From NCBI GenBank assembly GCA_015143295.1, contig CM026551.1:50642034-50706033 (forward strand): DNA of 64,000 nt. Reading direction: 5' to 3'. Source of the DNA: Tetracentron sinense. Lineage: Eukaryota; Streptophyta; Magnoliopsida; Trochodendrales; Trochodendraceae. Of the stretch, positions 10,540-64,000 are shown piece by piece (within the stretch, counting starts at the first letter, position 1; each line of letters begins with the position of its first letter). Made by a program: the position numbers and the translations under genes. The notes below the pieces were generated by a model. The model ran no database searches and was not told the DNA's origin. It saw nothing but the letters and a program-made list of their open reading frames with translations.

Positions 10540-13500
10540 CACAGCTGCACTTTGGTTATTCAATATGATTTGAGCATGTTACTGTACTTTTGACAATATT
10601 TTACAACCTAATATATATGTTGACGACCTTCTAAATTACGTACCAAAAAATTGAAAATAAAATGAAGAGAAAGTTTCAAAGCCAAAGAAAAATGTGTGTA
10701 GGGAAACATCCGCATGTGGACGCTCCTCTAAACATCAACCTTCAAAAGACAAAAAAACAGAGGCATCTAGTTTTTCCATTCCATTTCCACTTTCATTTTC
10801 TTTCCTCACTTCGTAGATAATGAAAGTAATACATTTTGGATACAGAGCCTATACCTACAAATACATCCAAGCTCACTGCATGCATATTCAGTGAATACTA
10901 AGAATGTGGATTTTTCTGAATTAAGTGAGATAAATAAGAGCAGAAAGCAAAGAAACGGATCATGGAAAACTTCAGCTTTGTGTTTGTGAGAGTCCTTTTT
11001 CTACCTTGGTCCTGATAGAAGTGAAGGCAATAATGGAGCCGAAACATTCAACTCTGCCTCTTTGCAAGTTACTGTTGTCATTTGTGGAGGCGGCGGAGTT
11101 AAGAAGCTATAATCTAAGTTGGGTTCAACATCCATCACACCCTCTAAGACCTTCACTACTACTGACATTGAAGGCCTCCTGGCGAAATCATTTTGTAAAC
11201 ACCATGCCGCAACCTTCATCACATCCATGGCTTCTGCTGCATGTAATTGCAGATCTTCACTCTTTTTGTCAAGCAAATCAAATAATTGTTCCTCCTCTGC
11301 CTTTCTTTTGAATAAGCTGAGCAAATGCATACTTTCTTCGGGCTGAGAGCGATCCAAATTTTTCCTCCCACACAACATCTCCATAACTACAACCCCAAAG
11401 CTATAGACATCTACCTTTTCCGTGATTACTGAGCTCAACCATTCAGGAGCCAAATACCCAGGAGTACCTCTCAATGTGGTCATAATTTCGCTTTGGTCCT
11501 TATCAATTAGCTTAGACAAACCAAAATCAGAAACCTTAGCATTGAAGTTTTCATCCAAGAGGATATTTTGAGGTTTTATATCTAAGTGGACTATTTTCTG
11601 TCTGCATTCTTCATGGAGATAGACTAATCCCTTGGCTATGTCGATGATGATTTTTCGTATGGATTGCCAATCAAGAACATGTTCTTGATTTTTGTGGAAG
11701 ATCCAATTATCCAAGGACCCATTGCACATATACTCATAAACTAAAAGCCTATGCGATTTCTCGGCACAAAATCCAACCAGTCTTACCAAGTTGACATGGT
11801 GAATGCTGCCAATGGTCTCAACCTCGGCTAAGAATGACTTCTTCACCTGCCCTAAACCATCCAAGCGTTTCACTGCAACTTTGGTGTCATTACTTAGAGC
11901 CCCTTCAAAAACTGATCCAAATCCTCCTTGTCCAAGCTTTCTATTAAAATTCTCTGTTGCAACTTTCAAATTTTCAAAAGAGAATCTTGTGGGCATACCT
12001 GGTACTTCATCAAAATAATCCTCCTCGTTTTCCTTGGCATCTCTTTTCTTTCGAAAAAGAACAACCCATATGCTAATTATAAGAAACACACCAAAGATAG
12101 CTCCAAGACTGGATCCCAGTATTACTACGGACCGTCTTGTTTTCTCTCCAGAAGGGGCGGTTGTAGGAGAGGCCTCCGATGAGGGAGCCTGTGCAATTGG
12201 TGAAATTTGCACCTTCACGAACGCAAATGAGTTATAATGAGTCATTCCCACGTTGTTCATCAACGAGAAGAGTTGAGATGGCAAAAAGCAATTGCCGCTT
12301 GAAGAATTTGATGAGTACTGAAAAAGAGCAGCTTTGCAGGAACAATTATTCGAACAGGCCTGCTTGCATGTCTCCATATCTGTATCTGTAAGATCTGAGT
12401 AATTGAAAGAGAAGTAAGTAATGTCCTTGAGCTCAAGAAATCTGTGATTCTGAGATGCTCCACAAGACAAGGGAGTAACTTCAGAACACCCGAGATTAGG
12501 TTGCCTATCATTTATTTGCTTAAAATAGCTTGCTTCACCGGTAGTTTCTCCGGGACAACTGCACTGCCCATTCGAGCAGATACCGTAATTCCCGCAGACC
12601 AAAGGATAACGACACACACCATAATAGCCCGTCAAGAGATCAGCCACCTCCTTCCAATCTTGTTCTTCTGTCCAGTCATAAACTCTCAAATGACCGTCTG
12701 ATCCGAATTTCATGATCTGAGCTGATGATCCCGGAGGCACTGTGATCCGATCAATTGGCTCTTTTGGGTCAGCAGACAATATGAAAAGAGCAAGACTTCC
12801 ATTCAGAAATTTAACATAGCTTGCTTCTTTAGTCGCCCAATTTTGGCTATCGTAATAGACTTGGGGAGGATTGGACTCAATGGAAGCAACCAAACCTTGA
12901 CTAGTAGTATAAGAAAGTGAGAATAGCCCTCCTTCAGTCCAATTCAATTCTGATGCACTCGGTGTGAGCCTCTGCCCTTCAACCAGTTTTTGCCCGATAA
13001 GTAAAGAGTCGGTCGGATGATCAAAAGACTGCCAGACGGTATGGTTGTTTCTGTCAAAGAGCACCAGATTTCCTGTATCAGTCATGTTTAAGCCTGCGAC
13101 GGACTTGCCACTTGTGTTAGTAGACCAAACCAAAGTACCGTCGACATCTCGCAATACCAGATCTCCTTCTGGGGTGAGCTGCAAAGTTGCATTTTCTCTA
13201 ACGGGGTTGTTTCGATTGGCTGACCAGACTACTCGAGGAAGAGGAGGAGATCGCATGGTGATTCTAACGGCGACGATGGCCAAGATGAAATTATCGCAAT
13301 TGCCATTGCAGTAGAAGCCACAGCCAAAACCAGGTCCAAAACCTTCTGATTCTCTGTAAAGGAGGAACCTCACCGTGGATACATTGTAGAAATTGGGAGA
13401 GTAGTCAATGGAGGAGGGGTTGTTGGTCCATGAAGTGGAGAGGTTGGCCATGAAAGGTTGGGCTTTGATTGAGTTTAGAAGAATGAGAATGAGAAGGTGA

Positions 13501-13760
13501 ATCAGAACCCAACAAAGGCTCCATCCTAATTTCATTCTTTCTAGTTTCTGCTGATATAATTCAATTCAAATTTCAAGGAGATGAAGAGACACTACTGAAG
13601 CAACGTTTAAGAAGAGAGGATAAGAGCACTGCAGAGAAGGAAGGTCCCAATCCAGATTCCAGACCCATAAATGTCAAAGACATGCCTAATCAACTGATTC
13701 TTTTATGTCCCCACAAATGGTAATGGCTTCTCCCTCCAAATAACGCGTTGTTGGCCTTAT
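10540..13760. repeat. Segmental duplication, copy B (receptor-kinase block)
   Basis: Partner of the block at 3770-7340. Homology continues through both flanks of the kinase gene, so the unit duplicated as genomic DNA and not through an RNA copy. Confidence 0.85.
11001..13535 (-). CDS. G-type lectin S-receptor-like Ser/Thr kinase (SD2-5-like), copy B
   Basis: Single-exon paralogue of copy A, 844 residues, starting MKLGWSLCW. Same architecture: signal peptide about 1-25, bulb lectin domain (VVWSANRNNPVR, WQSFDHPTDS), EGF-like Cys cluster (CGNYGICSNGQCSCP), PAN-like region (CKQACSNNCSCKAA), transmembrane helix about 471-494 followed by RKKR, and kinase about 534-803 with GQGGFGSV, VAVK, HLD, DFG and APE, all intact. 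It is also non-RD (HLD). The kinase halves of A and B are nearly the same, while the extracellular halves differ clearly in the N-terminal 110 residues and at 230-315, including short indels. This fits recognition domains diverging on a conserved signalling module. No frame lesion is seen. Confidence 0.93.
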   Translation of the reverse strand: MKLGWSLCWVLIHLLILILLNSIKAQPFMANLSTSWTNNPSSIDYSPNFYNVSTVRFLLYRESEGFGPGFGCGFYCNGNCDNFILAIVAVRITMRSPPLPRVVWSANRNNPVRENATLQLTPEGDLVLRDVDGTLVWSTNTSGKSVAGLNMTDTGNLVLFDRNNHTVWQSFDHPTDSLLIGQKLVEGQRLTPSASELNWTEGGLFSLSYTTSQGLVASIESNPPQVYYDSQNWATKEASYVKFLNGSLALFILSADPKEPIDRITVPPGSSAQIMKFGSDGHLRVYDWTEEQDWKEVADLLTGYYGVCRYPLVCGNYGICSNGQCSCPGETTGEASYFKQINDRQPNLGCSEVTPLSCGASQNHRFLELKDITYFSFNYSDLTDTDMETCKQACSNNCSCKAALFQYSSNSSSGNCFLPSQLFSLMNNVGMTHYNSFAFVKVQISPIAQAPSSEASPTTAPSGEKTRRSVVILGSSLGAIFGVFLIISIWVVLFRKKRDAKENEEDYFDEVPGMPTRFSFENLKVATENFNRKLGQGGFGSVFEGALSNDTKVAVKRLDGLGQVKKSFLAEVETIGSIHHVNLVRLVGFCAEKSHRLLVYEYMCNGSLDNWIFHKNQEHVLDWQSIRKIIIDIAKGLVYLHEECRQKIVHLDIKPQNILLDENFNAKVSDFGLSKLIDKDQSEIMTTLRGTPGYLAPEWLSSVITEKVDVYSFGVVVMEMLCGRKNLDRSQPEESMHLLSLFKRKAEEEQLFDLLDKKSEDLQLHAAEAMDVMKVAAWCLQNDFARRPSMSVVVKVLEGVMDVEPNLDYSFLTPPPPQMTTVTCKEAELNVSAPLLPSLLSGPR

Positions 13761-19147: not shown

Positions 19148-19632
19148 TAGGGCTGTCAACGGTCGGATTCGATAGGACTGTCAACGGTCGGACTTGGACC
19201 GGATCTGCCTAGATCCGAATCCAATCCGACAGATCCGAATCCGATCCGAGATTCGCCAGATCATAAATTAATCGAGTCTGAATCCGATCCGATTATATTT
19301 TTAAGAACCGAATCAATCTGATTAAGGTTAATTAAAAAAACTCTATTTTAATAATATAAAAATCTAATATTACCTTAATTAACTCTAATTAATGTTAATT
19401 TTTTTTAAATTAATACTTTATGTATAAAAAATCTATTAAATATGTTTTAAATGATTTTAAAAAGTTAATATAATCATATCGGATTTTAATTGGATCGGAT
19501 CACCCTATATCCAGATCCGATTATAATCGGATTTCACCGATCCGATCTGAATCTGATCCGACAGATCACACATAGGGTCCAAAGTCCGGCTAATCGGATC
19601 GGATCATATGATCTGATCCATTGACAGCCCTA
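19148..19632. mobile_element. hAT-like MITE 2 with doubled left terminus
   Basis: A 485-bp member of the TAGGGCTGTCAACGG family with target duplication ATTGGTCT / ATTGGTCC (19140-19147 and 19633-19640). The left terminal repeat is present twice in tandem (TAGGGCTGTCAACGGTCGGA, then TAGGACTGTCAACGGTCGGA 25 bases on). The right end is single. Confidence 0.88.
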
Positions 19633-21875: not shown

Positions 21876-22375
21876 TAGGGCTGTCAATGGACCGGATCAT
21901 GATCCGGATCCGATCCGAATCCGATCCGATTAGCCGGACTTTGGACCCTATATGTGATCCGTCGGATCGGATTCGGATCGGATCGGTGGAATCCGATTAT
22001 AATCGGATCGGATCTGGATATAGGGTGATCCGATCCGATTAAAATCCGATCCGATAATAATAATAATTTTTAATTATTTTAAATATATTATTTAGATTTT
22101 CTATGTATAAAATATTAATTTTAAAAAAAATTAACATTAATTAGCATTAATTAAGGTATTATTAGATTTTTTATTATTAAAATAGATTTTTTTTTAAAAA
22201 AAATAACCTTACTCGGATCGGATTCGGATTGGACGATATATAATCGGATCGGATTCGGATCGGTTACTTCATGATCCGACGGATCTCGGATCGGATTCGG
22301 ATCAGTCGGATTCTTAATCGGATCGGATTCGGATCTAGGCAGATCCGATCCGAATCCGATCCGTTGACAGCCCTA
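21876..22375. mobile_element. hAT-like MITE 3, nested in Helitron H1
   Basis: A 500-bp near-palindrome, TAGGGCTGTCAATGG ... CCGTTGACAGCCCTA, with dense GGATCGGATTCGG motifs in both halves. The flanks AACCAAGT and AACCAAGA form a 7-of-8 target duplication, offset by two bases on the left. It is the longest and cleanest of the three copies. Confidence 0.85.
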
Positions 22376-25829: not shown

Positions 25830-26188
25830 GGTGATCTTCTCCAGTTGTGACCGATTTTTGACAAAACCGGTTACTCCCCTGTGGTCACCAAATGTCCCTT
25901 TTTACACCTCTTAACTGTGGTTAAGATTCACCTACCCTTAGGGTTCACCCACCTATATTTGGTTTTTAGAAAAAATGTATAAAATAAATTAACCCTAGGA
26001 GTTGGTAAATTTTAACCACGGTTAACAAAAAAAATTTATATTTAAAAAAAAAACCAAGATAGGTGGGTGAACCTTAGGGGTGAGTGAATATTAACCATAG
26101 TTAAGAGGTCTCAAAAGGGACATGTGGCCACCTCAGGGGTGTAACCGGTTTTGGCAAAACCGGTTACAACTGGAGAGGAAGAGGTGCC
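25830..26188. mobile_element. Mutator-like foldback MITE
   Basis: Long inverted arms run from GGTGATCTTCTCCAGTTGTG to CACAACTGGAGA-type sequence ending GAGGTGCC at 26188. Both arms contain AACCGGTT blocks and GGTTAAGATTCACC / GGTGAGTGAATATTAACC. It is a relative of the element at 32481. The target duplication is blurred by A-rich flanks. Confidence 0.7.
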
Positions 26189-31491: not shown

Positions 31492-32480
31492 ATGACTTTC
31501 ATGTTCCTTATACATTCCATCGTCAACTTTCAAGAGAAATTATTATGGATATTTCGCTTCTTAGTAGTGGTTTGGTTCCCACTACAATGAATTTTTTTTT
31601 TGTTATTCCACCAACCATAAAACAACTTTCTACCCCCACCAACCATAACACCTATACTCAACTCCTCTCCCGACCAATCACCTCAAACCCCAATCATCTC
31701 AGAAGATAAATCAGTCCTTATATTTGCAAAAATAGAAATATATAGTTTGAGGTGGAAGATTAAACAATCTCATACAGAGATGTAAAAAATCAACGATATA
31801 CATTCATAGAAGAAAAGATATATGAGATGGAAGTTACAATTTCATAGAAGAAAAGATCTATGAGATGGAGGTTACAATTCCTTGGTTTTCGAGTAATCGG
31901 GTGGTCTATCATCTATTCTATTGTGCTCATTAGTTTGATATTTTTTTATTCATTTGGTATTTGAATCTATGAATTGATAAAGTAACAGGATTGGATCCCC
32001 CCTCAAGCAAAAAAGAGCCTCTGAAACAAACTTAGAAAAAAAAAATCTCAACTCTGTAAGTGGGGCATGTGTACATTGATGAATGAGATTGAAAGTAGTG
32101 GTCGTTGGGTTGTATAAAGCTTCAACATCTTCTCTTTAGGATTCTGATATTGGGCCAGCAACTTCTTAATGCATTTGTGCATTTTTCTCAGTCAAAATCT
32201 TCTTCTTGCAGTACAACTCCCCAATCAATCTAATACTCCCCCAACATCTGATTTCGTGCCTGGGTCTTCTTCACCTCCATTTTCTCCACTGGTTGTTTAA
32301 TCTTTTCACCTTCCCCTACACAATCAACTCTATTAGCTTTTGGACGATTTCATTGGGGCCTTTGTTTCCTCTTATAGTCATTTTAAAGAATTTATGAAGG
32401 AAAGCTAAAAGGAGTGACAGATTGAACTGTTGCAAGGGCTTAGCTTGTAACCGAATAAAGACGTGAGACATTTTAGAAAT

Positions 32481-32781
32481 GGAGTCAAATCCTCTACGGT
32501 GATAACCGGATTTGGCAAATCCGGTTATCACCCTAGAGGTCGCCACGTGTCTCCTTTGACACCCCTTAACCATGGTAAGATTCACCCACCCATCCTTCGG
32601 TTTTTTTTTAACATTAAAAACAGTTTTTTAATTAAAAAAAAAATCAAAGATGGGTGGGTGAACCCTAGTGGTGGGTGAACCTTACCCATGGTTAAGGGGT
32701 GTCAAAGGAGACACGTGGCAACCTCTAGGGGTAATCATCGGATTTTCCACATCCGGTGATAACCGTAGATGATTTGGCTCC
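32481..32781. mobile_element. Mutator-like foldback MITE with 9-bp target duplication
   Basis: A 301-bp element, GGAGTCAAATCCTCTACGG ... CCGTAGATGATTTGGCTCC, flanked by a perfect 9-bp duplication TTTAGAAAT (32472-32480 and 32782-32790), the size made by Mutator-like transposases. The two arms pair over about 130 bases each, leaving a short AT-rich loop near 32600-32640. The arms include TTAACCATGG and ACACGTGTC / GACACGTGG. It has no coding capacity. Confidence 0.9.
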
Positions 32782-34590
32782 TTTAGAAATAACTCTGGAG
32801 GGATTTACACGATTTTGTAAAAATAAGAAAGACAGACGTGGGTGGGGAATTAACGTGGGCAGGTAGGTAATTAACGCGGGTAGTGGAGAGGCAAAGGTTG
32901 AGAGAAAGAGAGAGAGAGATTAATGGGGGTGTTTTGTCCTGCCAAAATTTAGTATTAATTAATGTTTTGCACACTGTGGGAGACGTTAGAATTATTTGGA
33001 GAGTAAAGAAAATAGAAACGTATAAGGGGAAGTTAATGGGAGAAATAAAAGGAGGAGATGAAAGGTGAAAAAATTGTGGGTCCCACCAATTAAAAGTAGT
33101 TTGATGATGTGACATCACAAATGAAGAGTAATCCAACATGGCATCAAGAGGAAGACAAACGTGGCATCCATAGAAAATGTTAACCGAAAAAAGAGGATAT
33201 TTAAATGTTGGGAAGATCATTAAAAAAAAAAAATTTGTCCAAATCTGCGGTTAGCGGAGGGAGATAAATTAGGAGGATTAAATGAGAGAATTATGAAAGG
33301 TGGTAAAAATTGTGGATCCTGTAAGCACCCAATTTTTACACCCTAATTAACCATGGTTAACCTCCGTTAACCATAGTTGTCCCCGACCAAACCCTAGTTT
33401 AACCCTAGGTAGCGCCTAAACCTTAGACCAAATCATAAGCTAACCTTAGTTAAACCCTAGGTCTAACCCTAGGTAAACCCTAGACCTAACCCCAAGCCTA
33501 GCCCTAGCCCATACCCTAATGCAAACCCTAGGCTAGCCCTAGTCTAAACCCTAGGGTAAGATACCATGGGCTCAAGGCCCGTTTCAAGTCCAAAACTCAA
33601 AAAAAAAAAAATAGCATAGATAAAATCCTATTTTTCGGCCTAAATAAGGGCCCACGAGGCCCAATCCGAGTGGGACCAACAATGCTTTTTTTAATTTTAA
33701 ATTTTGGGAGCTAATTCCCAAGATGACAAAACCACTTTTGGCTTTCCCCCCACACATGTGGTGGTTGGGCCCAAAGTAAGGAACCAAACAACCAAAAAAA
33801 AAAAATTGAAAAAATATATAAAATGGGGGTTTGAAAGCTTGGGCGCCAACCCCTTGTGGCAAGGCCCACATACGGTGTAACGCCCCGAAATACCCCCTAG
33901 GAGTTTAGGGATATTTTAGGTATCACACTACGTACTTATCAAACCATCCTGTAATGCATAAGATAAAATACAGTACTAACAACGATAATCAGAGCGCGGA
34001 AGCTAACATATATGCGGAAGCGTAAACAAATTTTCCTTTCTTCTAATGATCCAAAATAGTATTCCAAGTTAACATAAATACAAGACATGTCTAAGTCTAA
34101 GGTGGACAGGCCCACCTATCAAAATATCAAAATACACAAGACTCTCTCATACTCTCCACTCAACAGTAGTCGAGATATGGCCACCCATCGAGGTCTCGGT
34201 CCGCCTGAGACTGAAATGGAATAGCCGGCTCTCTCTCCTCTATATACTCTTCCTCGACCCAAGGCTCCGGGTCGAGGGCTCCCTCAGTACCTGCCGACAT
34301 GAAAGTACGGCTGAGCATGGAATACTCAGCGAGTACAAGCTACTAGCAGACCATAACAATAATAAAAACACACCATAGTAATATCATACAAGCAGTAATA
34401 GAAACATCACAAAAGAAACACTATAAGGCAAGATACAATATAAGCATCCTGACGTGCGTACATGAATCCGAAAACGCCGATAAAACTCATGCTTGAAAAC
34501 TCATGTCATGTCCCGGTATGCCTCGTAGAAATCATGTATGCGTGCATGCATGAATGCATGATCATCATCTTGTAAACCTCTATCTCGTAA

Positions 34591-36190: not shown

Positions 36191-38715
36191 TATCAGAGTA
36201 CGTTGTCTGAGCTACGACCTTAGTGCCTTCCGAGCTACGTCTTTAGTGCCTTCCGAGCTACGATTGCCTGCAGGTCCAGACTGTTTTGGCCATATCTTTT
36301 GACTTGTTCGTCCGATTTTGACGATACAACTTGCGTTGGGTTCGTACTTCGAAAAGGAACATTTCTGACGTTTCATAATTTCCAATTTCTTCCTTATTTA
36401 TTAATTAAACTACAAAAACAGCCAATTAGCTACGAATGTGCTATTCATTAAGGATGAAAAAGTCCGGGGTGCTACATATGGGTTGGGCCCAAAGTAACAA
36501 ACCCAAAGCAAAAAAAAAAAACCAAATGGAGAAGACACTGTTCATTGTCTTCCCCATTGGACCGTGCGTACAGCAGGCTACTAGCCATTGCAGCTCCCTT
36601 GGCTCCCCTACCGCCCTACTCTTCTATTTTCCCTCCAAAATTCCAAATCGAGCTCCTTGAGATTAAAGGACAGCAAACCAAAGGGGGCGGGGGGGCGGGC
36701 AGTCCTATTTTCATGAAAAATCACCTCATACCACCTGTGCGCACGCACCCACCATTGACCACCAATCACAACCTTCATACCTCACTCGTATCTTCATACC
36801 TCACTCTTATCCCTTCCCTCATCCTCTATTTAAATCCCCTTGCACCCTCGTTTTACGGCGGACCCGGTTTTGAGGGAAACTCAAAAAAAAAAATTTGTCC
36901 AAGGCTACTGTAGTGCTCGGCCAATCCATCTTCTCCTTTTCTCCCCTTTTCTCCACCACTTTAGTCAGGCCCCCCCACATAGTTTCTAAGTGCTCTTAGG
37001 CCGTCCCCTAAGCCTCCACCCTCCACTGCTCAAAAAAAAAAAAATTGTAGGTTTTTTTTCGGGTTACAGTACCTTCAGCCCTACCCCACTTTGCCTGAAC
37101 ACCCACCACTTCATCTCGGCCCATCCCTAGGCCTTCCTCAAACTCCTCAGGCCGCACCGCACTCGCCACAGTCACCACCACGCAACCACCCCTCCCAACT
37201 CGCCACTGTCGCCACTATAGCAAAAGGGTATACCTCCACCCTTTTTCTTTCTTTGCTGCTATCCTCATTGTAAGGGACCCCTAATCTCATTACAAGGGTT
37301 CCATTTCATTTTTTTATTCCTTATTTATTTCGATTACAGTAGATGCAAAACCGTGGGAGGTCTCGGACTAGGTGCATGGCCATGGGTTCCACCACTTCCC
37401 ATCACCGATCACGGTCACTCCCAGGGATCTAAGGGGTCCTCAATCCATGAGAAACCCCCTGGATTCCCATGAGTAAAACACCACAGCACCTTTTTGAAAA
37501 AAAGAAATAAAATTTTTTCAAAAACAAAACAGATTGGGTCCGTTGCCTATAACCCATGTTTAACCCCAGTTAGACTTGCCCCTGGTCGAAACCAGGGCTA
37601 TGGTTAGACTTTCCACACATAGGGCTACTCCACTATAAATTTTCAGCCTTTGACTCCGCCATTAACCCGAGTAAAATCGACCCCAAAGTATGGTCAACAC
37701 AGTGCAAAAAAATATATGCGGCAGAATAACTTTACACCTCTGTGGGGCCCACATCCGAACTCCACTTGGGCCCCACAAAGGCTCAAATTGTTCTCCTCTT
37801 TGCCAACTTTGCAATGATGGTCTCGGATCCCCATGAGGTTGAGCCAAACCGTGGCAAAATTGCAGCAAGAATCACCAAAAAACTGTTTGGGTCTTGTTAT
37901 TAAAAATCTATCATTTTATATGGTCACTTTTGGGCCGACTTTGGACCCATGTGGGGCCCACCCACGACATCATCTTGGGCCCCACAAGAGCCCAAATTGT
38001 TCATTACTCTTCAGGCTACCCCCTGATATTCTCGGATTCCCGGCATTCACCCTTTAACCATGGTTAAACTCGTATTAATCATGGTTAGAATTTGGATAAA
38101 ATATGGGGTTTTTTAACATATGCTGGACTTTGTGAGGGCCCAGCCGGGCAGGAGGCCATTCTAGGCCCTGCCATGAACCCTGTGCCCATTTTTGCTTTAG
38201 TCGGACCCTTAACCATGGGTAAACTCATTCGTAGTTAATATTTAACCATGGTTAAGCAACCCATGACCTCAGAAAATTCTGAAAAAATCATTAAAAAAAT
38301 CAAAAATATTTCATGGATTCTAAAAATATTTTTTGTGATTTTTTTCATTAGGGTTGGGACCCTTAACCACGGTCAAAACCCCCATCCGGGTTGATTTTTA
38401 ACCATGGTTAAGCGACCCTTAATCAAAGAAAATCTGGAAAAATGATCAAAAATTCTGAAATAATCTGAGAAACCCAAAAATGGTTTCACTCGGCCATTTA
38501 ACCATGGTTAGCACCCTAAGCATGGTCTAACCATGGTGACTAACCACTCTTAACCATGGTTAACCAGTCCTTAACCACTGGGAAAATCTGGAAAAAAATC
38601 CCAAAAAAAATCCATTGACCAATGCCTAAGGACCTTAGACTGTTTGGACCTTGCCCAACCTCAGTTAGCAATCCTAACCACAGTAGAACCCGTTTAATTC
38701 TGGTTGAACTCTCTT

Positions 38716-38935
38716 GGCCTACCGGGCCCAATCTTAGCCTACCGGACTCAATCTCGGCCTACTGGGCTCACCCTTGGCCTACTGGGCCCAATCTCGACCT
38801 ACCAGGCCCAAACCCTAGCCTACCGGGATCACCCCTGCCCTACCGGGCCCAACCTCAGCCTACTGGGCTCAAACCCTAGTCTACCGAACTACCCATTCGC
38901 CTACCGGGCCCAATATCGAGCCCGGTCAACCATCC
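38716..38935. repeat. 21-bp minisatellite (unit A)
   Basis: About ten copies of a GGCCTACCGGGCCCAATCTCA-like unit. A second set is at 40970-41190 in unit B. Proline-rich open frames here are repeat translations and not genes. Confidence 0.9.
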
Positions 38936-39372
38936 CTAACCTCCCGACTAGACCTTAAGCTATCCTTGGTGCACACACACACCCCTAGCCTTGGAACGGG
39001 TTCATGTGCCAGAACTACGCTAGGTCTGATCTCACCCTAATGTGAATACGTAGGCAACCAAACTCAGGTTCGACCCTAGTCTAGGATTTTCTCCTTCTTA
39101 GATTAGCATTACATTAAATAATAAGGCATCTAATTAAAATTAAGATTGACTTAGCTCAATCCTAGCAAGTAGGGAACCACTAAAAAGTGGAAGTACCGAG
39201 GTGCCTAACCTCTTCCCCAGACTTAACCGAACTTCTTACCCTAATCTCAATCGCAAACCAAGACCTTATCCAAATCCTGGGGAGTTATCCCTTCTGAATG
39301 AATAGGTGGCGACTTTAAATTCTCCCCGTGAGATTCAAATCAGGGTTTTCCCGAAACCCGTGCTCACAGCTC

Positions 39373-39390
39373 TGGCGACTCTACTGGGGA
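39373..39390 (+). other. Primer binding site (unit A)
   Basis: TGGCGACTCTACTGGGGA starts four bases after the LTR end. TGG at this place is complementary to the CCA end of a tRNA, and the rest fits a tRNA 3' end of the type ...GAGTCGCCA, probably tRNA-Arg as in Ogre-like elements. The tRNA identity is from memory of the family and unverified. Confidence 0.65.
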
Positions 39391-41625
39391 TTTTTTTAAT
39401 CAAGGTTCAACCCGGAACCTAGGTTTAAGCCAAACTAAACATCAAATTAATCAATTGTCTTAGTATTTAACCTAATGCTAATCACTTTACATCTCTTTGG
39501 TGATTTGTGTATTGTGCATAGCATAGTTGTATAATCAACCCAATACCCATTAGACAGGCTTATTACGTTCACGGTTGCTAGATGACTATCCTCAATGACA
39601 GTGACTTAACAGTCTTGGAGGTCCGCAGAACTTTGTCTTGAGTGACTATCCCCAAGAAACGATTCTGAACGCTCTCACTTACACCAATCGTCCATTTTAG
39701 GGAGTCGCATATACGGTATTAAGTGATCCCCCCACCCTTAGGAACATGTTTGCATCAACCCAGCATGCATACATATAGTTTAGGTTAGGGTATAGTCTAC
39801 AAGTAACCCACGTTTAACCCCAGTTAGACTTGCCCCTGGTCGAAACCAGGGCTATGGGTAGACTTTCCACACATAGGGATACTCCACTATAAATTTTCAG
39901 CCTTTGACTCCGCCATTAACCCGAGTAAAATCGACCCCAAAGTATGGTCGACACAGTGCAAAAAAATATATGCGGCAGAGTAACTTTGCACCTCTGTGGG
40001 GCCCATATCCGAACTCCACTTGGGCCCCACAAAGGCTCAAATTGTTCTCCTCTTTGCCAACTTTGCAATGATGGTCTCGGATCCCCATGAGGTTGAGCCA
40101 AACCGTGGCAAAATTACAGCAAGAATCACCAAAAAACTGTTTGGGTCTTGTTATTAAAAATCTATCATTTTATATGGTCACTTTTGGGCCGACTTTGGAC
40201 CCATGTGGGGCCCACCCACGACATCATCTTGGGCCCCACAAGAGCCCAAATTGTTCATTACTCTTCAGGCTACCCCCTGGTATTCTCGGATTCCTGGGAT
40301 TCACCCTTTAACCATGGTTAAACTCGTATTAACCATGGTTAGAATTTGGATAAAATATGGGGTTTTTTAACATTTGCTGGACTTTGTGAGGGCCCAGCCT
40401 AGCAGGAGGCCATTCTAGGCCCTGCCATGAACCCTGGGCCCATTTTTGCTTTAGTCGGACCCTTAACCATAGGTAAACTCATTCGTAGTTAATATTTAAC
40501 CATGGTTAAGCAATCCATGACCTCAGAAAATTCTGAAAAAATCATTAAAAAAATCAAAAATATTTCATGGATTCTAAAAATATTTTTTGTGATTTTTTTC
40601 ATTGGGGTTGGGACCCTTAACCACGGTCAAAACCTCCATCCGGGTTGATTTTTAACCATGGTTAAGCGACCCTTAATCAGAGAAAATCTGGAAAAATGAT
40701 CAAAAATTCTGAAATAATCTAAGAAACCCAAAAATGGTTTCACTCGGCCATTTAACCATGGTTAGCACCCTAAGCATGGTCTAACCATGGTGACTAACCA
40801 CTCTTAACCATGGTTAACCAGTCCTTAACCACTGGAAAAATCTGGAAAAAAATCCCAAAAAAATCCATTGACCAATGCCCAAGGACCTTAGACTATTTGG
40901 ACCTTACCCAACCTCAGTTGGCAATCCTAACCACAGTAGAACCCGTTTAACTCTGGTTGAACTCTCTTGGCCTACCGGGCCCAATCTTAGCCTACCGGAC
41001 TCAATCTCGGCCTACCGGGCTCACCCTTGGCCTACTGGGTCCAATCTCAACCTACCAGGCCCAAACCCTAGCCTACCGGGATCACCCCTGCCCTACAGGG
41101 CCTAACCTCAGCCTACTGGGCTCAAACCCTAGTCTACCGAACTACTCATTGGCCTACCGGGCCCAATATCGAGCCCGGTCAACCATCCCTAACCTCCTGA
41201 CTAGACCTTAAGCTACCCTTGGTGCATACACACACCCCTAGCCTTGGAACGGGTTCATGTGCCAGAACTACGCTAGGTCTGATCTCACCCCAATGTGAGT
41301 ACGTAGGCAACCCAACTTAGGTTCGACCCTAGTCTAGGATTTTCTCCTTCTTAGATTAGCATTACATTAAATAATAAGGCATCTAATTAAAATTAAGATT
41401 AACTTAGCTCAACCCTAGCAAGTAGGGAACCACTAAAAAGTGGAAGTACCGAGGTGCCTAACCTCTTCCCCAGACTTAACCGAACTTCTTACCCTAATCT
41501 CAATCGTAAACCAAGACCTTATCCAAATCCTGGGGAGTTATCCCTTCTGAATGAATAGGTGGCGACTCTAAATTCTCCCCGTGAGATTCAAATCAGGGTT
41601 TTCCCGAAACCCGTGCTCACAGCTC

Positions 41626-41643
41626 TGGCGACTCTGCTGGGGA
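41626..41643 (+). other. Primer binding site (unit B)
   Basis: TGGCGACTCTGCTGGGGA, one base different from unit A. This is the one directly upstream of the gag start. Confidence 0.65.
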
Positions 41644-42482
41644 TTTTTTTAATCAAGGTTCAACCCGGAACCTAGGTTTAAGCCAAACTAAACATCAAAT
41701 TAATCAAATGTCTTAGTATTTAACCTAATGCTAATCACTTTACATCTCTTTGGTGATTTGTGTATTGTGCATAGCATAGTTGTGTAATCAACCCAATACC
41801 CATTAGACAGGCTTATTACGTTCACGGTTGCTAGATGACTATCCTCAATGACAGTAGCTTAACAGTCTTGGAGGTCCGCAGAACTTTGTCTTGAGTGACT
41901 ATCCTCAAGAAACGATTCTGAACACTCCCACTTACACCAATAGTCCATTTTAAGGAGTCGCATATACGGTATTAAGTGATCCCCCCACCCTTAGGAACAT
42001 GCTTGCATTAACCCAGCATGCATACATATAGTTTAGGTTAGGGTATAGTCTACAAGCAGCCCACCTGGAGGGATACTCTAAACCCTAACCTGCTTGCACC
42101 CTATACCTGTCCTCAGTTATGGTTGACTACCTGCGCACACTCTATCCGGATAATCACCCAGGGGCATATGATGAGTCAAACTTGTGCTTATAATAAAACA
42201 CATCCTACCCCACATCCTGACATAGCACATGAGATCCAAATCCCCGGCATATAGGTCTTCACTTAGACATATCTCTTGTCTTGACTTGATAGACCCCTTG
42301 TCCCCAACAACCCGGGTAAAGCATACCAGACCTCTATCCGACTACCCTATCGGGGCACATGTGTCATGTCACACCCTAACGAAAAATCAAAAAAAAATTA
42401 CAACCTTCATTTACATCATCATTGCATCTTTCACCTGCATACACAGTGCACTTACACAAAGTCTGTATATTTGTCCAGGTAG

Positions 42483-56040: not shown

Positions 56041-56389
56041 AAGTCGAAACGCCAAATAAAACTGCTTAGTGGTCATTTATTAATTTACCATTTGTTTGAA
56101 CAAAACGTCTGGAAACACTGTTGGAATCTTGTGATGGAGCTTTTGTGCATTAAATATAGATAGGTGAGTAGTCAACATTTCATTGATCATGTGTTCCCTT
56201 AATACCAATTCTGGTATTAGGAGCCGAACGGAGGATTTGCACTCTCTCTCTCCTCACTGGTTCCCATATTCTCTTCTTTCCCTCTTTATTTTTGGTGGAA
56301 ATGTTATCATGTATAACACACACATATTCTTCTTACTCTCTTTATTCAAACTCTATAAGAGAGTTCCTTCCCCTTAACCAAATCCAAGC

Positions 56390-57056
56390 CGAATCTTTCT
56401 CTCTCCCTCTCTCCCTTTGCCTTCTCTCTTCTCTGTGAAGAGGGAAGATGGGGAAAACCCCTTTCTAGTGTAACAAGAAGAAACGAAGGAGAGGAAGTTC
56501 TTCTCTCCCATCTCCTTCCCTATGGCAGGTAAACCCTCTATCCCATTCTTCTTTTCTTTCGCAATTTAAGTTTAGATTTGTTAGATAATATTTTTAAGTT
56601 TTGATAGTTTTAGATTAGTTCTAGTTAAATAAAACACTGTTTTTTTTTTTAAGAATAGATTAGTCTAAATGCTAGATTAGTTTCAAATCTGGGTTTATTA
56701 TGTCGATTAATCTTGTTTTGTTAGTTTTAAAATCCCTTTTAAATTCTGAAATTTGATAGTTAGGTGCATGATTAGATTTAGTTGTAAATTCTGATATCTC
56801 TTAGTTCAATCTATCTTTTTAGTTTAGTTTGTTTAGCTACTTAAAAATCTCATTCTAGTTTTATGTTTAGGTTGGTTTCTAGTCCACTTACATTCTGATT
56901 ATTAGTTTAATTCAGGTTAGATCTTAAGTTGGTTAGTTTTAAATTATTTGATACAATCTTTAGGTTTGTTTTAAACTTAAATAGGTTAAAATTTAGGCTA
57001 GTTTTCTAAACTCTGTTTTTTTAGTTTAACATTGGGTAATCTTTAGGTTAGTTTCA
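56390..57056 (+). repeat. Leader repeat L1
   Basis: Homologous to 58110-58790 (offset about 1,713) and in part to 61380-61500. It starts with a purine/pyrimidine 5'-UTR-like stretch, has GTGAAGAGGGAAGATGGGG and GGCAGGTAAACCCTC (a possible splice donor), then a long T-rich intron-like region. It is probably the 5' end of a gene I cannot identify. It is cut at 57056 where the kinase fragment starts. Confidence 0.75.
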
Positions 57057-57869
57057 AGTTCAGCATCCTTATTGCCTCTTCTTTGGAGTATTTTTCTCCA
57101 AGGATAGGATCGACAAGTTCTAGGAGATTTTCCTGCTCTTGTAAGACATAGGCCTGCAATTTCATGTATGGAACAACAAGTGTCGTTATTGTCCCATAAT
57201 TATTTTCCAACCAAGATTTGCAAGTGTAAGATATGTATTTAGAGAATACGTAAATAAAAGCAGTGAGGAAAGAGCACAAAAGCAAATGATTAGTATCATC
57301 ATAAATTTTGATTTTGATTTTGATCAGATTTCGAGCTTCAAATACCAGGCTTAGTAAGTTATTGAACTGGGTTTTACTTTACATTACCTTTGTAGACATG
57401 ACACGACATGGGTATGGGTATTGGATCCGTCTCACAAATAATGAATCAGTTGTGAATATTGGAATTAAAAATATACTTAAAATTCATAAATGTTTCAAAT
57501 TAGGGGAAAAAGAATAATTGAAATACTTTTTCAGTTATATATATATATATATATATTGAGAGAGAGAGAGTTGTGTTCCTGTGCCCCAAAAATTTGCTCA
57601 TTTCTAAAGTAAGAAAAATATCAGTTCATAGTGTCAACTGTAAAGGGTTGACCAAAGATTTTGTGCAGAAAAGACATCATACTTCATAATGTATAAACTT
57701 CGATAATAATTAGATTACCCAATCGAGAAGATAAACAAACTCCTCCCTCGGCCTATAATTTGTGTTGCTCTTCCCATTGACAATCTCCAAGGCGACAATT
57801 CCAAAGCTGTAAACATCTGTTTTATCAGTCAAGTAACCCCTCATTGCATATTCAGGAGCCATGTATCCT
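57057..57869 (-). pseudogene. LRR-RLK (subfamily VIII-like) kinase fragment, two exons
   Basis: Exon 57869-57719 (minus) encodes [19 protein letters not shown].. and ..[17 protein letters not shown].. to LLDW, then a GT donor. Exon 57153-57057 has an AG acceptor and encodes AYVLQEQENLLELVDPILG..., ..EEAIRMLNL. These are kinase subdomains VIII-X of receptor kinases of the LRR VIII type. The second exon is cut in the middle by repeat L1, and no upstream kinase exons occur before 58000. It is a fragment with no function expected. Confidence 0.8.
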
Positions 57870-58109
57870 CTAAAAAAATCAAAATTTATGGTCAGACATT
57901 GCATCAGATCATTAGTAAGTTGTGAGCCACTAGGAGAAGGCCAGCTTTGAGTCCATAAAGGGAAGGGATGGAAGACAAGCACCCCAAGACCATCCATCTT
58001 TTAACTACTGTGGCCCTAAACACACCCACTCTCTCTCTCTCACGGGTTCCCCTTATCTTTTTCCCCTCTTTATTCAAACACTACAAAAAAGAGAGTTCCT
58101 TCCCCTTAA

Positions 58110-58790
58110 CCAAATCCAAGCCTTAGACCCCTAACCGAATCTTTCTCTTCCACTTCTCCCTTGCCTTCTCTGTTCTCTGTGAAGAGGGAAGATGGGGAAA
58201 ACCCCCTGCACATAGGATCACCATCTCCTTCCCGGTGGCAGGTAAACCCTCTATCCCATTCTTCTTTTCTTTTACAATTTAAGTTTAGATTTGTTCGATA
58301 ATATTATAAGTTTTGATAGTTTTAGATTAGTTCTAGTTTTGATAAAATACTGTTTTTTTTTATAGATTACATTAGTCTAAATGCTAGATTAGTTTCAAAT
58401 CTGAGTTTATTAGGTAGATTAATTTTGTTTTGTTAGTTTTAAAATCCCTTTTAAATTCTGAAATTTGGTAGTTAGGTTCATGATTAGAAATAGGTGTAAC
58501 TCTTAGTTCAATCTATCTTTTTTAGTTTAGTTTGTTTGGCTACTTAAAAACCTCATTCTAGTTTTATGTTTAGGTTGGTTTCTAGTCCACTTAAATTCTG
58601 ATTGTTAGTTTAAATTCAGGTTAGATCTTAAGCTAGTTAAAATCGGTAGGTTAGTTTTAAATTATTTGAAACAATCTTTAGGTTAGTTTTAAACTTAAAT
58701 AGATTAAAATTTAGGCTAGCTGTTGAAACTCTGTTTTTTTAGTTTAACATTGGGTAATCTTTAGGTTAGTTTTAAGATAAAATTTAGAGT
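58110..58790 (+). repeat. Leader repeat L2
   Basis: Second copy of the L1 sequence, running on into the tandem unit that starts at about 58667. Carries CCCGGTGGCAGGTAAACCC and the same T-rich region. Confidence 0.75.
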
Positions 58791-59958
58791 AGCTCTAATC
58801 AACTAAGTTCTGAATTTTTAGTTAAATGTAGATTAGCTTAGATTTCTAATTGTTAACTAATGCTAATTTTAATTATTTCGGATAATTTTAGTTAATCTGA
58901 TTTTTAGATTAGTCCTTAAAGTTAGTTTTAGTTTAGTTTCTTTTAGCCTAAATTCTAATTTAGATGAAACCCTAACCCTAAACCCTCATGTTCTCCTGCT
59001 TCTATCAAGCTCATTGCTTTCATCTCAGACGAAACCCTAACCCTCTCTGTAAAGCTCATTGCTCTCATTTCATATACGAAATCCAGTCCACCATTGCAGA
59101 ACTACTTTTCTCGGAGGATCGACATAGCTCACGAAGTCGAGCAATCAACACTCCACAAAGTCACGACAGCCATAGTTTTTGAGTTATATTTGGACGGATC
59201 TGAGAAGATTGGTGAAGTATTTGTGGAGATTATAGTTGGAAAGAAATGATAGTCATGGAGCGAGATTTCGTGACTTCAATTCTGCTCTAGTTGTTTCTAG
59301 TATATAACCCATTAGCGAGGATCTTTTCTAATATGGAAGGTATGTATTGAGATCTAGCCATTTTCATGATGTTCTCTAAGACTTAAGATCATTGGTTTTT
59401 TTTTTTTTTTGTTGCGAGTTCCTTTGGTGTTGATTTGAAGAATGAGCATCTGTTAAAATGATTTTATGATTGATTGGCATGGGATCAAGATTAAGGAAGG
59501 CAAATGAGTTTCTTGAGTTGTGATAGTGATATTTTCGTCTCTTTTCCCCCTATTGCTGAATATGATGAAAAAGAGCGATAAATTGGGTTGATTTGGTAAT
59601 GTGGTTGCTGATCTTCTTTGCTCAATTCGACTTGTTTTGGAATTTTACCATAAAATCCCAAATCTGATTGTTGATACTGTGATATTGTTTCTTTTGTTAA
59701 GTATTTGTTGTTGTTATTATCTGAATTGTAAGTATTTGTTGATTTGTTACAATTTGATATTGAATTATTCATTTATTCTTCAATGACAATTTTTTAATTG
59801 CTTTTCCTTCCCGCCTTGCTCGACCCTTGCTCTTGAGGGCATGGTTAGGGCCTAGTCAATGCAGGCCCTTGAAGGACTAGGGTAGGGTTAGGCCACTACT
59901 CTTATAGGTAACGGCAGGGTTAGGGCTGACCCCTACCCTACCTCAACCTGACCCTTTT

Positions 59959-60390
59959 AAGGATTCTAAGCATGTCAAGTCCATAGAGTGACACATAAGT
60001 TTTGGTTAGAAGAAATGAATGCATTAACACTATTGATTTAGAGTAAAGAATCAGAGGTCCTCACATAAAAAATCGCGCATCACATCTTGTTGGATAATGT
60101 GATTGGACTTTGGAGTGTTGAAATATTAGAGAGATTGTTGTAATTGGAAACAATGTCTCAATTCTACACAATATGACTTTAGGGTACCGGTAAGACGTCT
60201 AAAGAGAGACATTCTAAGATAGGTGATGAAATGTTAGTAGTTGTCGGGAACAATGTATTGGTAAATATCAGAATTAAAGATTTAGCTAAAGTTAGTGCAG
60301 AGTTGGTCGTTCTAAAGGAAGTAGTTCAAGAATCACTGTCATTGGAAACCTTGCTAGACCAATGAGAGGAAATGATGTAGCTTCTGCATC
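59959..60390 (+). pseudogene. Serine acetyltransferase (SERAT) pseudogene, plus arm of unit 1
   Basis: Serine acetyltransferase makes O-acetylserine in cysteine synthesis. This copy shows degraded remnants of the catalytic left-handed beta-helix: ILLD..IG, ETMSQFYT, then HSKIGDEMLV, IRIKDLAKV and VVLKEV, spread over frames with several stops and shifts. It pairs with the minus arm at 60921-61350. Confidence 0.75.
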
Positions 60391-60920
60391 CCATTAACTT
60401 AATTTTTTATGAAAATCCTTTTAAAAAAATGTATGAAAAAATGGATATTAAGTATGATGCAAACAACTCTTATAGGAGATAAAATAAGTGACTCGAAGGC
60501 ATGCAAACAAGCATTGAGAGTGATTTTGATGCATGGACGTTGGTCGTACCTTAGAATATATATGCAAAATTGTGATGTATTTTTTTTTACAAGTATCTTA
60601 TATTTTTATTGATTTTAATTATAAAATTCGTTGTATTTTAAATTTAAAATACAATTGGATTTAAAATTAGTTGTATTTTAAACTTGATTTAAATACAACT
60701 AATTTTAAAATTAAAATCACTAACAACAACATAAGATTCTTGTATAAAAAAAGAGTATATCACAACCACTGCACCAAATCACTTCCCATGCTTGCTTGCA
60801 TTCATTCCAACCACATATTCCAACTTGTATATGAGCCGCTTACATCATAGTTACCATGCATTTTATTTTTCTTCATACATGCTTTTGTAGGACTCCCAAG
60901 AAAATTTGTAGTCATTTGAA
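60391..60920. other. Spacer between SERAT arms, unit 1
   Basis: AT-rich, with an inner self-complementary block at 60640-60710 (TAGTTGTATTTTAAA / TTTAAATACAACTA). It would form the loop of a hairpin. No gene. Confidence 0.6.
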
Positions 60921-61350
60921 TGAAGAGATCACCTCATTTCCTTCCATCAGTTTAGCAGAGTTTCCAACGACAGTAGTTCTTTGAAGTTCTTCCTTTAGGA
61001 CTATTTATCTTGCACCAATTTTAGCCAAATCCTTAATTTTAATATTTTTTAATACATTGTTCCCTGTACCTATTAACACTTCATCACCTTTCTTAGGATG
61101 TTTGTAAACAGACGTCTTGCATGTATCCCCAAAGTCAATTGAGAGTTTTAGACATTGTTTCCAATCACAGCGGTCTCTCCAATCACAACTTTGGTCGCGT
61201 GATCCAACATAATTTCATGCCCGATCTTTGCTCCTAGATGTATAACTACTGTGAAGATTTTTGTTACTCTATTCTAAATCAATAGTGCCAAACACATTTT
61301 TTCATTTTGACTACAATTTATGTGTCACCCTATGGTCTTAGCATTCTTGG
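60921..61350 (-). pseudogene. SERAT pseudogene, minus arm of unit 1
   Basis: Minus strand gives HLGAKIGHEIMLDHATKVVI, GETAVIGNNV, then a frameshift and IKDLAKIGAR-like sequence. These are the hexapeptide-repeat and catalytic (LDHATxVVIGETA) blocks of serine acetyltransferase. The His of the LDHA motif is present, but frameshifts and stops break the frame. Confidence 0.8.
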
Positions 61351-62679
61351 AACCATAGTTACCAAGTTGTTTAAAACAATCTTTAGGTTAGTTTTATAGT
61401 TAAATAAATTCAAATTTAGGCTAGTTTTGAAACTCTGTTTTTTGAGTTTAACATTGGGTAATCTTTAGGGTCGTTTTAAGATAAAATTTAGAGTAGCTCT
61501 AATCAACTAAGTTCTGATTTTTAAGTTAAATGTAGGTTAGTTTAGAATTCTAATTGTTAACTAACGCTAATTTTAGTTAATTCCTAGGATAATTTTAGGT
61601 AATCTGAGTTTTAGATTAGTCCTTAAAGTTAGTTCTAGTTTAGTTTTTTTAGTCTACATTCTAATTTAGATGAAACCCTAACCCTAAACCCTCTTGTTCT
61701 CTCTTTCTTCTATCAAGCTCATTGCTCTCGTCTTAGACGAAACCCTAACCCTCTATCTAAAGCTCATTGCTCTCATCTCATAGACGGAATCCAGTCCACC
61801 ATTGCAGCACAACTTTTCTCAAAGGTTCGACATAGCTCACGAGCAGTCATGGCAGCCACGGTTTTTGAGTTGTATTTGGACGGATCTGAGAAGATTGATG
61901 AAGTATTTGTGGAGGTTTTAGTTGGAATGAAATGATAGTCATGGATTGACATTTCGTGACTTCGATTCTGCTCTAGTTGATTCTAGTATTTCACTCATTA
62001 GCGAGGATCTCTATAAATATGGAAGGTATGTATTGAGATTTAGCCATTTTCATAATGTTCTGTAAGACTTAAATCATTGTTTTTTTTTTGCGAGTACCTT
62101 TGGTGTTGATTTGAAGAAATGGGCATCTGTTCAAATGATTTTATGATTAATTATATGATATTGATAGATGTGGGATCAAAATTAAGGAAGGCTGATGAAT
62201 TTCTTGAGTTGTGATAGCGATATTTTCCTCTCTTTTTTCCCCTATCGCTGAATATAATGAAAAAAGAGCAATAAATTGGGTTGATTTGGTAACGTGGTTG
62301 CTGATCTTCTTTGCTGAATTTGCCTTGTTTTGGAATTTTACCATGAAATCCCAAATTTGATTGTTGATACTATGATGATGTTTTTTTTGTTAAGTATTTA
62401 TTGCTGTTATACTCTGAATTGTAAGTATTTGTTGATTTGTTATATTTGATATTGAATTATTCTTTTATCCTTGAATGACAATTTTTTTATCGCTTTTCCT
62501 TCCCGCCTTACGGCTCTGCCTGGCCCTTGCCTTTGAGTGCATGGTTAGGGCCTAGTCAGTGCGGGCTCTTGAAGGGTAGAGTTAGGCCCCTACTATTATT
62601 TTTAAGGGTCGGGTTAGACCTAACTCCTGACTCTACCAGGCCTTTTGACAGTATCTAATTAGGAAAGTATCACTAGCAT

Positions 62680-63288
62680 AGAACAAGAGCCATCTTGGAG
62701 CATTATTATTTTACTACTATGTTATCTCATATTTCATTATATTCTACACTCGCAAATCAACTGACTATGAGATTGGACAATTCAAAATTCAATATTAATA
62801 TCTTGGTAGAAGTTTTTTCAAGCGTTTTTGTTAAGGATAAAGGGATTAGAAGAACCGTGCGAAATGATATAAAAACTGCAAAAGAAAGGAACTCGTAATG
62901 TATCAGTTATATATACTATTTCCTCAATTTTAAGGGTTTCCAAGCATGTTGAGGCTATAGGGTGGCATATAAGTTATGGTTAGAAGGAAGAAATGTGTTG
63001 ATACTATTGATTCAGAATAGAGAATTAGAGGTCCTCGTAGTAGGTATCCATCTAGGATTGAAGATCGGGCATCACATCTTGTTGGATCATGCGACTGGAG
63101 TTGTGTTGTGAAATATTGGAGAGACTTTTGTATTGGAAACGATGTCTCAATTTTACACAATGTGATTTTGGGGTTACAGGTAAGATGTTTGAGGACATAC
63201 ATTCTAAGATATGCGATGAAGTGTTAATAGATATCAGGAGCAATGTATTAAAAAATATTAGAATTAAAGATTGGACTAAAATTGGTGT
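62680..63288 (+). pseudogene. SERAT pseudogene, plus arm of unit 2, with N-terminal domain
   Basis: The most complete copy. 62690-62898 encodes the N-terminal SATase domain (HYYFTTMLSHISLYSTLANQ..., ..RNDIKTAKERNS). Then, after a stop, come FLNFKGFQAC, GYRVAYKLWLEGRNVLILLI, ..HLGLKIGHHILLDHATGVV and, in a shifted frame, ETMSQFYT. No intron is seen across this stretch. At least two stops and one frameshift make it non-functional. Confidence 0.82.
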
Positions 63289-63678
63289 AATGTTTCCAAT
63301 GACAATAGTTTTTTGAGGTACTTCCTTTAGGACTACTGACCCTGTAGCAATTTTACTTAAATCCTTAATTATAATATTTTCCAATACATTGCTCCTTGCA
63401 CCTATTAACACTCAATCACCTATCTTAGGATGTCTATCCATAGACGCTTTACATGTAACCCCCAAAGTTACATTATGTAGAATTGAGATATTGTTTCCAA
63501 TCATAGCGGTCTCTCTGATCACAACTTTGATCGCGTGATCCAACATGATAACATGCCCGATTTTCGCTCTTGGATTAATATCTATTGTGAAGATATCTGA
63601 TACTCTATTCCAAATCAATAGTGTCAACATTCATTCTTTCTGGCCACAACTTATGTGCCACCCTATGGACATGACATC
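63289..63678 (-). pseudogene. SERAT pseudogene, minus arm of unit 2
   Basis: Minus strand: LLIWNRVSDIFTIDINPRAK, IGHVIMLDHAIKVVIRETAM, IGNNISILHNVTLGVTCKAS, DRHPKIGD, a stop, then VLIGARSNVLENIIIKDLSK and ATGSVVLKEVPQKTIVIGN. This is the catalytic beta-helix with one in-frame stop. Changes from the family include Gly-Gly to Gly-Val in the TLGGTGK motif and Gly-Glu to Arg-Glu in IGETA. It is the best-preserved arm. Confidence 0.88.
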
Positions 63679-64000
63679 CTTTTTTTTGATCAATAACTCA
63701 TTTTATTCAAACGAAAGAGAAGGAAACAAAAACAAAACCAAACAAAGAAAAAGGCCACCAAGTTTACAAGCGAGTAAACTTGGCTCCTACCACTAAATAA
63801 CCTGAAACATCCCCCTTCAGCTTCTACACATAATTCTGAATTTCCTCCCTGGTACAATATAACCCGACCCACTCCAACACTACCAAGCGTATGCGCTCAC
63901 AAATCCTCGGCACGGGAGAATTTTGATCGTCAAATACTCTACGGTTTCTCTCTTTCCAGAGTATCCAAGAAATAGCCCCCGGAATGACTTCCTAAATCCT
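63679..64000 (-). mobile_element. LINE 3' end, running off the window
   Basis: A T-run at 63679-63687 marks the poly(A) tail on the minus strand. Upstream of the tail (higher coordinates) the minus-strand translation gives WILWKERNRRVFDDQNSPVP, then ICERIRLVVLEWV, which is the conserved ending of plant LINE ORF2 (zf-RVT region, 'ISW.IWKERN.R.F'). The frame is shifted at the window end. It inserted at the outer end of the SERAT minus arm, or the arm ends there. Confidence 0.75.

Follow-up and report, generated by a model that had tools for sequence, protein, structure and literature searches.

Inverted adjacent paralogous pseudogenes in rice have been described as sources of hairpin small interfering RNAs (siRNAs) (Guo et al. 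2009, PMC2708354). The locus treated here lies at the end of a 64,000-nucleotide stretch of DNA (C1:50642034–50706033, referred to as the window) and was analyzed together with the genome to which it belongs (1.16 Gb in 1,479 contigs). Four decayed serine acetyltransferase (SERAT) gene copies are present, arranged as two inverted pairs, with one pair in each of two tandem units of ~2.7 kb (units A and B; plus-strand copies Ap and Bp, minus-strand copies Am and Bm). The locus is a real, well-resolved inverted and tandem SERAT pseudogene array of a known kind. It is probably a decaying palindromic relic of an inverted SERAT duplication, perhaps silenced in cis, and it can be explained without invoking a function in cysteine synthesis. 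The SERK-type and SERAT-type genes and the repeats suggest that the DNA is of plant origin.

The array shares with the rice pair, as far as the account of the latter goes (PMC2708354), neighboring inverted pseudogenes, a single parent, and a possible RNA duplex; the first rice example spans 185 nt at 83% identity. The SERAT arms exceed that pair in length (~350–700 bp) and divergence, occur twice in tandem, and have no known small RNAs. The VIM4-VIM2 pair of Arabidopsis Cvi-0 likewise consists of inverted paralogues that form a palindrome with a possible read-through hairpin acting on the family, and in its published description the arms are genes for which siRNAs, cleavage, and methylation were measured (PMC13213937). 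The SERAT copies, in contrast, are dead, and what is known of them has been read from the assembled nucleotides.

Among the PAI genes of Arabidopsis, PAI1-PAI4 is the inverted pair, and the PAI copies are near-identical. In both the PAI and the SERAT case a metabolic gene was duplicated into an inverted pair, and methylation, tied to small RNAs in the PAI report, is suspected in the SERAT arms (PMC3203196). Silencing was measured in the PAI system as presented there, whereas the SERAT arms offer only a mutational hint. Inverted duplication has also been discussed as an origin of microRNA (MIRNA) genes, and a foldback derived from the target gene is common to that model, as outlined in the source, and the present locus (PMC3237417). 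The SERAT locus differs in having no known mature miRNA, and the window as a whole gave 0 Rfam matches at gathering scores. In a maize relative, a hairpin locus is described as targeting a pollen gene (PMC11390486). A literature search on SERAT in combination with inverted repeats and siRNAs turned up no pertinent paper.

Structure and origin of the inverted array

The positions and orientations of the SERAT arms proposed in the initial annotation, as well as their placement within tandem units, were recovered by self-comparison of the window, in which the leader upstream of unit A (58659–59942) aligned with that of unit B (61364–62637) at 85.6% identity. Alignment of the inverted arms scored 512 in unit A and 323 in unit B, against maxima of 58 and 53, respectively, in 100 single-base shuffles each, and all four copies were matched as SERAT by tblastn with the protein of the intact SERAT gene on contig C3 (the C3 gene) as a query. 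Non-coding copies of one parent gene are adjacent and in opposite orientation, as in an inverted paralogous pseudogene pair. An assembly artefact, named at the outset as an outcome that would overturn the locus, is unlikely, because the arms differ by ~25%, whereas a false palindrome or duplication would be near-identical.

The 530 bp between the arms of unit A, earlier taken for a spacer, are inner arm sequence, self-homologous in inverted orientation. An inverted match joins 60401–60536 to 60906–60766 (100/133 aligned bases identical; core at 60570–60765), and alignment of the interior with its own reverse complement paired 60401–60654 with 60906–60671 (175/222 identical; score 174, shuffle maximum 55). 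Since the inter-arm sequence aligns with its own reverse complement, unit A is one continuous palindrome of ~1.4 kb without a true spacer. A miniature inverted-repeat transposable element in this interior was considered and rejected, given a single weak match elsewhere in the genome (C8, 76% over 85 bases) and the inverted homology on the flanks.

The copies of unit B do meet without a spacer at 63288/63289, as originally described, but the minus arm does not end at 63678, as Bm continues past the window. The start of Bp, formerly placed at 62932, was corrected to near 62683 (~residue 112–114 of the C3 protein). The inner ends of both arms are missing, and Bm is interrupted after 63681 by a ~1.15-kb fragment of a long interspersed nuclear element (LINE), flanked by the target-site duplication gacatcctt (63673–63681 and 64832–64840 in window numbering). 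This fragment has a 308-residue open frame, cut by the end of the examined piece, with a zf-RVT domain (E 4e-23), and the frame being still open suggests that the LINE is younger than the SERAT arms. Three breakpoints, namely the Ap start (59955), the Am end (61352), and the LINE insertion (63681), fall within about six codons of one and the same SERAT motif (C3 residues ~193–199).

The genome search for family TIGR01172 returned 10 matches. Three are long open SERAT frames above the cut-off (C3:59027327, C1:62724647, and C9:41785701, with 401, 403, and 356 residues from stop to stop), two are exon-like matches on C24, and five are pieces of the present locus. Among intact genes, the closest relatives of the arms are the SERAT genes of C3 and C1, both without introns, and identity to the C3 gene is 69–78% across the copies. 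Homology of the arms to the 3′ flank of the C3 gene was rejected, the alignment ending within the coding part.

In the phylogenetic tree, the four copies clustered together (SH-aLRT/bootstrap 99.9/100) beside the C3 gene (90.6/88). Over residues 194–338, Ap grouped with Bp (95.4/95) and Am, at a weak node, with Bm; as plus groups with plus and minus with minus, the inversion would have come first and the tandem duplication second. Differences at codon positions 1, 2, and 3 numbered 32, 39, and 34 for Ap/Am, 54, 47, and 44 for Bp/Bm, 24, 25, and 16 for Ap/Bp, and 29, 25, and 23 for Am/Bm, unlike the intact C3/C1 pair (48, 42, and 123). Because inter-copy differences are even over codon positions, the copies were probably already non-coding when they split. 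Am ends at the start of leader B and Bm extends further, as would follow if a single tandem duplication had broken within the minus arm.

Table 1. Features of the SERAT array and its leader in window coordinates
Feature	Position	Strand	Remarks
Leader copy 1, repeat part	56503–56883		56630–56883 within direct repeats, resembling long terminal repeats (LTRs), of an element on C9
Leader copy 2	58027–58776		89% to copy 1 over 58221–58776
SERK-type receptor-kinase fragment	59175–59666	+	Exon 1 (broken) and start of intron 1; repeated at 61859–62359
High-copy repeat	59783–59958		41/47 matches listed for the leader query (best 40 of 1,125 candidates scored)
Ap, SERAT pseudogene, sense	59955–60390	+	C3 residues ~194–338; 73.4% identity to C3 coding sequence (CDS)
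Inner part of unit A palindrome	60391–60920		Centre near 60662
Am, SERAT pseudogene, antisense	60921–61352	-	C3 residues ~338–197; 76.0% identity to C3 CDS
Leader of unit B	61364–62637	+	Tandem copy of 58659–59942
Bp, SERAT pseudogene, sense	62683–63288	+	C3 residues ~112–312; 72.1% identity to C3 CDS
Bm inner piece, SERAT pseudogene	63289–63681	-	C3 residues ~329–199; 77.7% identity to C3 CDS
LINE 3′ part	63682–64000, on to ~64831 outside the window	-	zf-RVT domain in the outside part
Bm outer piece	~64841–65197, past the window end	-	C3 residues 58–198; 69.1% identity to C3 CDS; residues 198–84 covered by tblastn, the outermost part beyond residue 84 by DNA alignment alone

Folding, target matches, and mutation pattern

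The strong hairpin potential expected of the arms was confirmed on both strands. Unit B (62890–63690) folded at −371.6 kcal/mol as plus-strand RNA (mean of 20 shuffles −183.4, z −27) and at −316.5 kcal/mol as minus-strand RNA (z −24), and unit A (1,421 nt) had folding energies of −532.8 and −554.6 on the two strands, values given without a shuffle comparison. By computed folding, a transcript of either unit would form a long duplex. Other inverted repeats of similar size are found in the window at 19173–19604 / 21919–22375, 25835–26179, and 32477–32784. The last two (345 and 308 nt) gave z near −22 (−21.4 and −22.0), and such z values are therefore not special to the SERAT locus.

Maintained stem pairing is expected of a kept hairpin-RNA locus, although it is not strictly defining, and was not seen here: arm identity within units (A, 295/400 = 0.738; B, over the shared region, 259/343 = 0.755) is not above that across units (286/375 = 0.763 and 267/340 = 0.785). 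Arms no closer within than across units argue against maintained pairing. With G:U pairs counted for a plus-strand transcript, the fractions were 337/400 (0.843) and 298/343 (0.869) within and 316/375 (0.843) and 303/340 (0.891) across units, and the pairable fraction of unit B was 509/588 if the plus strand is transcribed. The G:U asymmetry favors plus-strand transcription in unit B (66 vs 41, P 0.01) and, weakly, in unit A (42 vs 29, P 0.08); of the cross-unit pairs, it was strong in Bp/Am (36 vs 10, P 8e-5) and absent from the other (30 vs 28, P 0.45). Among polarised changes, C>T on the plus strand (113/411) exceeded G>A (85/406; P 0.03). Selection for hairpin pairing through the G:U excess was set aside as unspecific, a similar asymmetry being present in a same-orientation pair (15 vs 31, P 0.013).

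Near-matches to the intact genes were counted as 21-mers. No more than two mismatches to the SERAT CDS of C3 or C1 were found for 43/370 from the inner piece of Bm, 54/586 from Bp, 17/412 from Am, and 28/411 from Ap, and no 21-mers came within two mismatches of the C9 SERAT gene. Exact matches were restricted to Bp (9/586), and 17/370 of the inner Bm 21-mers had at most one mismatch. When mismatches were permuted along each alignment 1,000 times, Bp against C3 had 5, 33, and 71 windows at 0, ≤1, and ≤2 mismatches, against 0.5, 5.0, and 22.8 expected. Ap and Am, as well as Bm against C3, had about as many near matches as permutation yields; Bm against C1 had a marginal excess (P 0.045 at ≤1 mismatch, and 0.085), and four copy–copy controls had none. 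Bp matches C3 and C1 exactly over at most 24 bases each, at sites that lie close together, and the Bp excess may come from one stretch that was kept or became similar by chance or by conversion from an intact gene. The refuting condition named at the outset, arms too diverged to target any intact gene, did not hold, as near-matching 21-mers exist; they clearly exceed permutation in Bp only. Targeting of intact SERAT genes by RNA derived from the locus is possible.

Arms and leader should be of equal age if both arose in one duplication. Between the units, differences were counted at 123/1,243 leader sites (K 0.107) and, in the arms, at 70/343 and 71/385 sites (K 0.246 and 0.216). Transitions per C/G site were about twofold more frequent in the arms (96/289) than in the leader (67/437; P 2e-8). 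By context, the excess was found at CHH (73/237 vs 41/347, P 2e-8) and CHG sites (16/28 vs 11/46, P 0.006); at CG sites, which are few, the counts were 7/24 and 15/44 (P 0.79), and transversions numbered 45/728 and 56/1,243 (P 0.11). A transition excess at CHG and CHH but not CG sites is a hint of non-CG methylation directed by siRNAs to the arms alone.

The leader and other features of the window

The leader, to which a UTR/intron-like look (UTR, untranslated region) and a possible promoter had been ascribed, proved to be a chimera of LTR-like sequence, a fragment of a SERK-type exon 1 and intron 1, and a high-copy repeat, and not a SERAT promoter. SERAT flanks as its source were rejected, as the 9-kb stretches that hold the C3 and C1 genes contained no match to it at E 0.001. 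At least three local copies of the leader are present, with differing divergence (K 0.066 and 0.107). For query 56240–57060, 20/46 listed matches, drawn from the best 40 of 77 candidates, are at other genomic sites and overlap a large part of 56503–56883. In the C9 region, 56630–56883 sits inside direct repeats that are at least 1,262 bp long and 99.6% identical and that enclose a gag frame (Retrotrans_gag, E 2e-14; Ty3_capsid, E 4e-5); no such repeat pair was seen in the other three of the four 8-kb regions inspected. Because the C9 copy lies in near-identical direct repeats around a gag frame, 56630–56883 looks like LTR sequence, and this part could be a candidate promoter source for the locus.

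The fragment at 59175–59666 matches C24:16524402 (79%), C2 (72%), and C5. Leucine-rich repeat (LRR) exons of SERK type lie downstream of the match on C24 and C2, and none were found at the C5 match by the same scan. The name SERK follows our own reading of the exon sequences, and the high-copy repeat is presumably hAT-like. We also take 57720–57870 (minus strand) to resemble the activation segment of an LRR receptor kinase, a reading made without a family call over a range that held stop codons.

Elsewhere in the window, two large open frames on the minus strand (4313–7012 and 11001–13565) contain B_lectin, PAN_2, and kinase domains, the make-up of G-type lectin receptor kinases, and DNA similar to them recurs within 10 kb upstream of the window. 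A tandem duplication of 2.26 kb (37550–39811 / 39804–42064) is 97.3% identical, with 49 transitions and 11 transversions.

Interpretation and significance

According to the preferred reading, a decaying inverted-duplication relic, a copy of an intronless SERAT gene akin to those on C3 and C1 would have become non-coding and been duplicated as an inverted repeat, as the tree and the even codon positions suggest. The junctions point to a subsequent tandem duplication of the unit together with its chimeric leader, with breakpoints inside the leader and the minus arm, after which unit A would have lost outer and unit B inner arm parts, and the LINE, to judge from its target-site duplication, would have split the minus arm of B. 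According to the folding computations, any read-through transcript would form a long hairpin with imperfect pairing. It would then most likely be diced, its main effect falling on its own locus through siRNA-directed methylation, for which the non-CG transition excess in the arms is the only hint.

Several observations weigh against this reading. The node joining Am and Bm is weak (70.9/67), and no explanation was found for the clustering of three breakpoints within about six codons. The arms-to-leader ratio of non-CG transitions to transversions is 1.85 with a bootstrap interval of 1.14–3.14, the transition-to-transversion contrast between arms and leader reaches only P 0.03, and against the SERK part alone that contrast has P 0.28 (transitions per C/G site, P 2e-5). 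When compared with the intact parents, the CHH-to-transversion ratio is 2.1–2.6 in the arms and 1.3–2.2 in the SERK fragment, so that the gap shrinks, and, with the intact genes used for polarisation, sequence context has a weak effect in the arms. In other repeat pairs the CHH-to-transversion measure lies between 0.5 and 11: inverted repeats gave three low (1.4, 1.4, and 2.2) and two high values (6.2 and 6.9), and several direct repeats are high as well. The excess of Bp near matches to C3 over permutation (P 0.04, below 0.001, and 0.001 for the three mismatch classes) also belongs here; it is similar against C1, a test that is not independent, the two intact genes being related.

A rival account, unlikely yet to be taken seriously, is an inert relic whose arms were never specially methylated and whose leader looks younger through gene conversion or re-duplication. 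The three or more local leader copies of differing K make repeated exchange plausible, and the transition-to-transversion difference is as slight as stated above, but conversion should reduce transversions and CG changes as it does CHH changes, and only CHH and CHG differ significantly (CG sites being few). An improbable reading, in line with the initial proposal, is a working hairpin-RNA locus resembling a proto-MIRNA gene, which would repress the intact SERAT genes in trans by means of its siRNAs. The hairpin z of −24 to −27, the exact Bp and near-exact Bm 21-mers (9/586 and 17/370), the Bp excess, which guides from a minus-strand transcript would need, and the G:U pairs that lift the pairable fraction of unit B with the plus strand transcribed all fit it. 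Within-unit arm similarity is, however, not maintained, Ap and Am lack a near-match excess, and that of Bm is marginal and to C1 only. Moreover, the exact Bp matches fall in one short patch, so a single similar stretch can explain the excess, the G:U asymmetry is not hairpin-specific, one arm is split by the LINE, and two other palindromes of the window also fold at z near −22. For regulation of SERAT or cysteine synthesis by the locus there is as yet no case, and the idea is at present a hypothesis. A SERAT-capturing transposon with the arms as its terminal inverted repeats is hardly credible. A chimeric, multi-source leader would suit such an element, but arm query 60125–60300 matched four local copies and two intact genes, with no other element among the candidates (a list that can miss common repeats), the unit A interior has its one weak match elsewhere, and the idea was rejected when genome searches found no further copies with the same ends.

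An extension of the relic reading, doubtful at present, sees in the arms a fossilised trace of self-silencing, in which hairpin siRNAs would have led to arm-only non-CG methylation and to C-to-T decay ~2-fold faster than in the co-duplicated leader, converting many G–C to G:U pairs, so that the DNA repeat was broken and the RNA hairpin kept. Hairpin transgenes with C-to-T-changed sense arms are described as still forming G:U hairpins and escaping self-silencing; if the extension is true, the SERAT arms would be a natural counterpart of these engineered hairpins as presented in that work (PMC9263138). Inverted gene duplications have been proposed as a breeding ground for small-RNA genes. The SERAT locus provides an ordered series of events and an internal control in its co-duplicated leader, and it can therefore be used to test whether siRNA-directed methylation speeds up mutation in inverted repeats.

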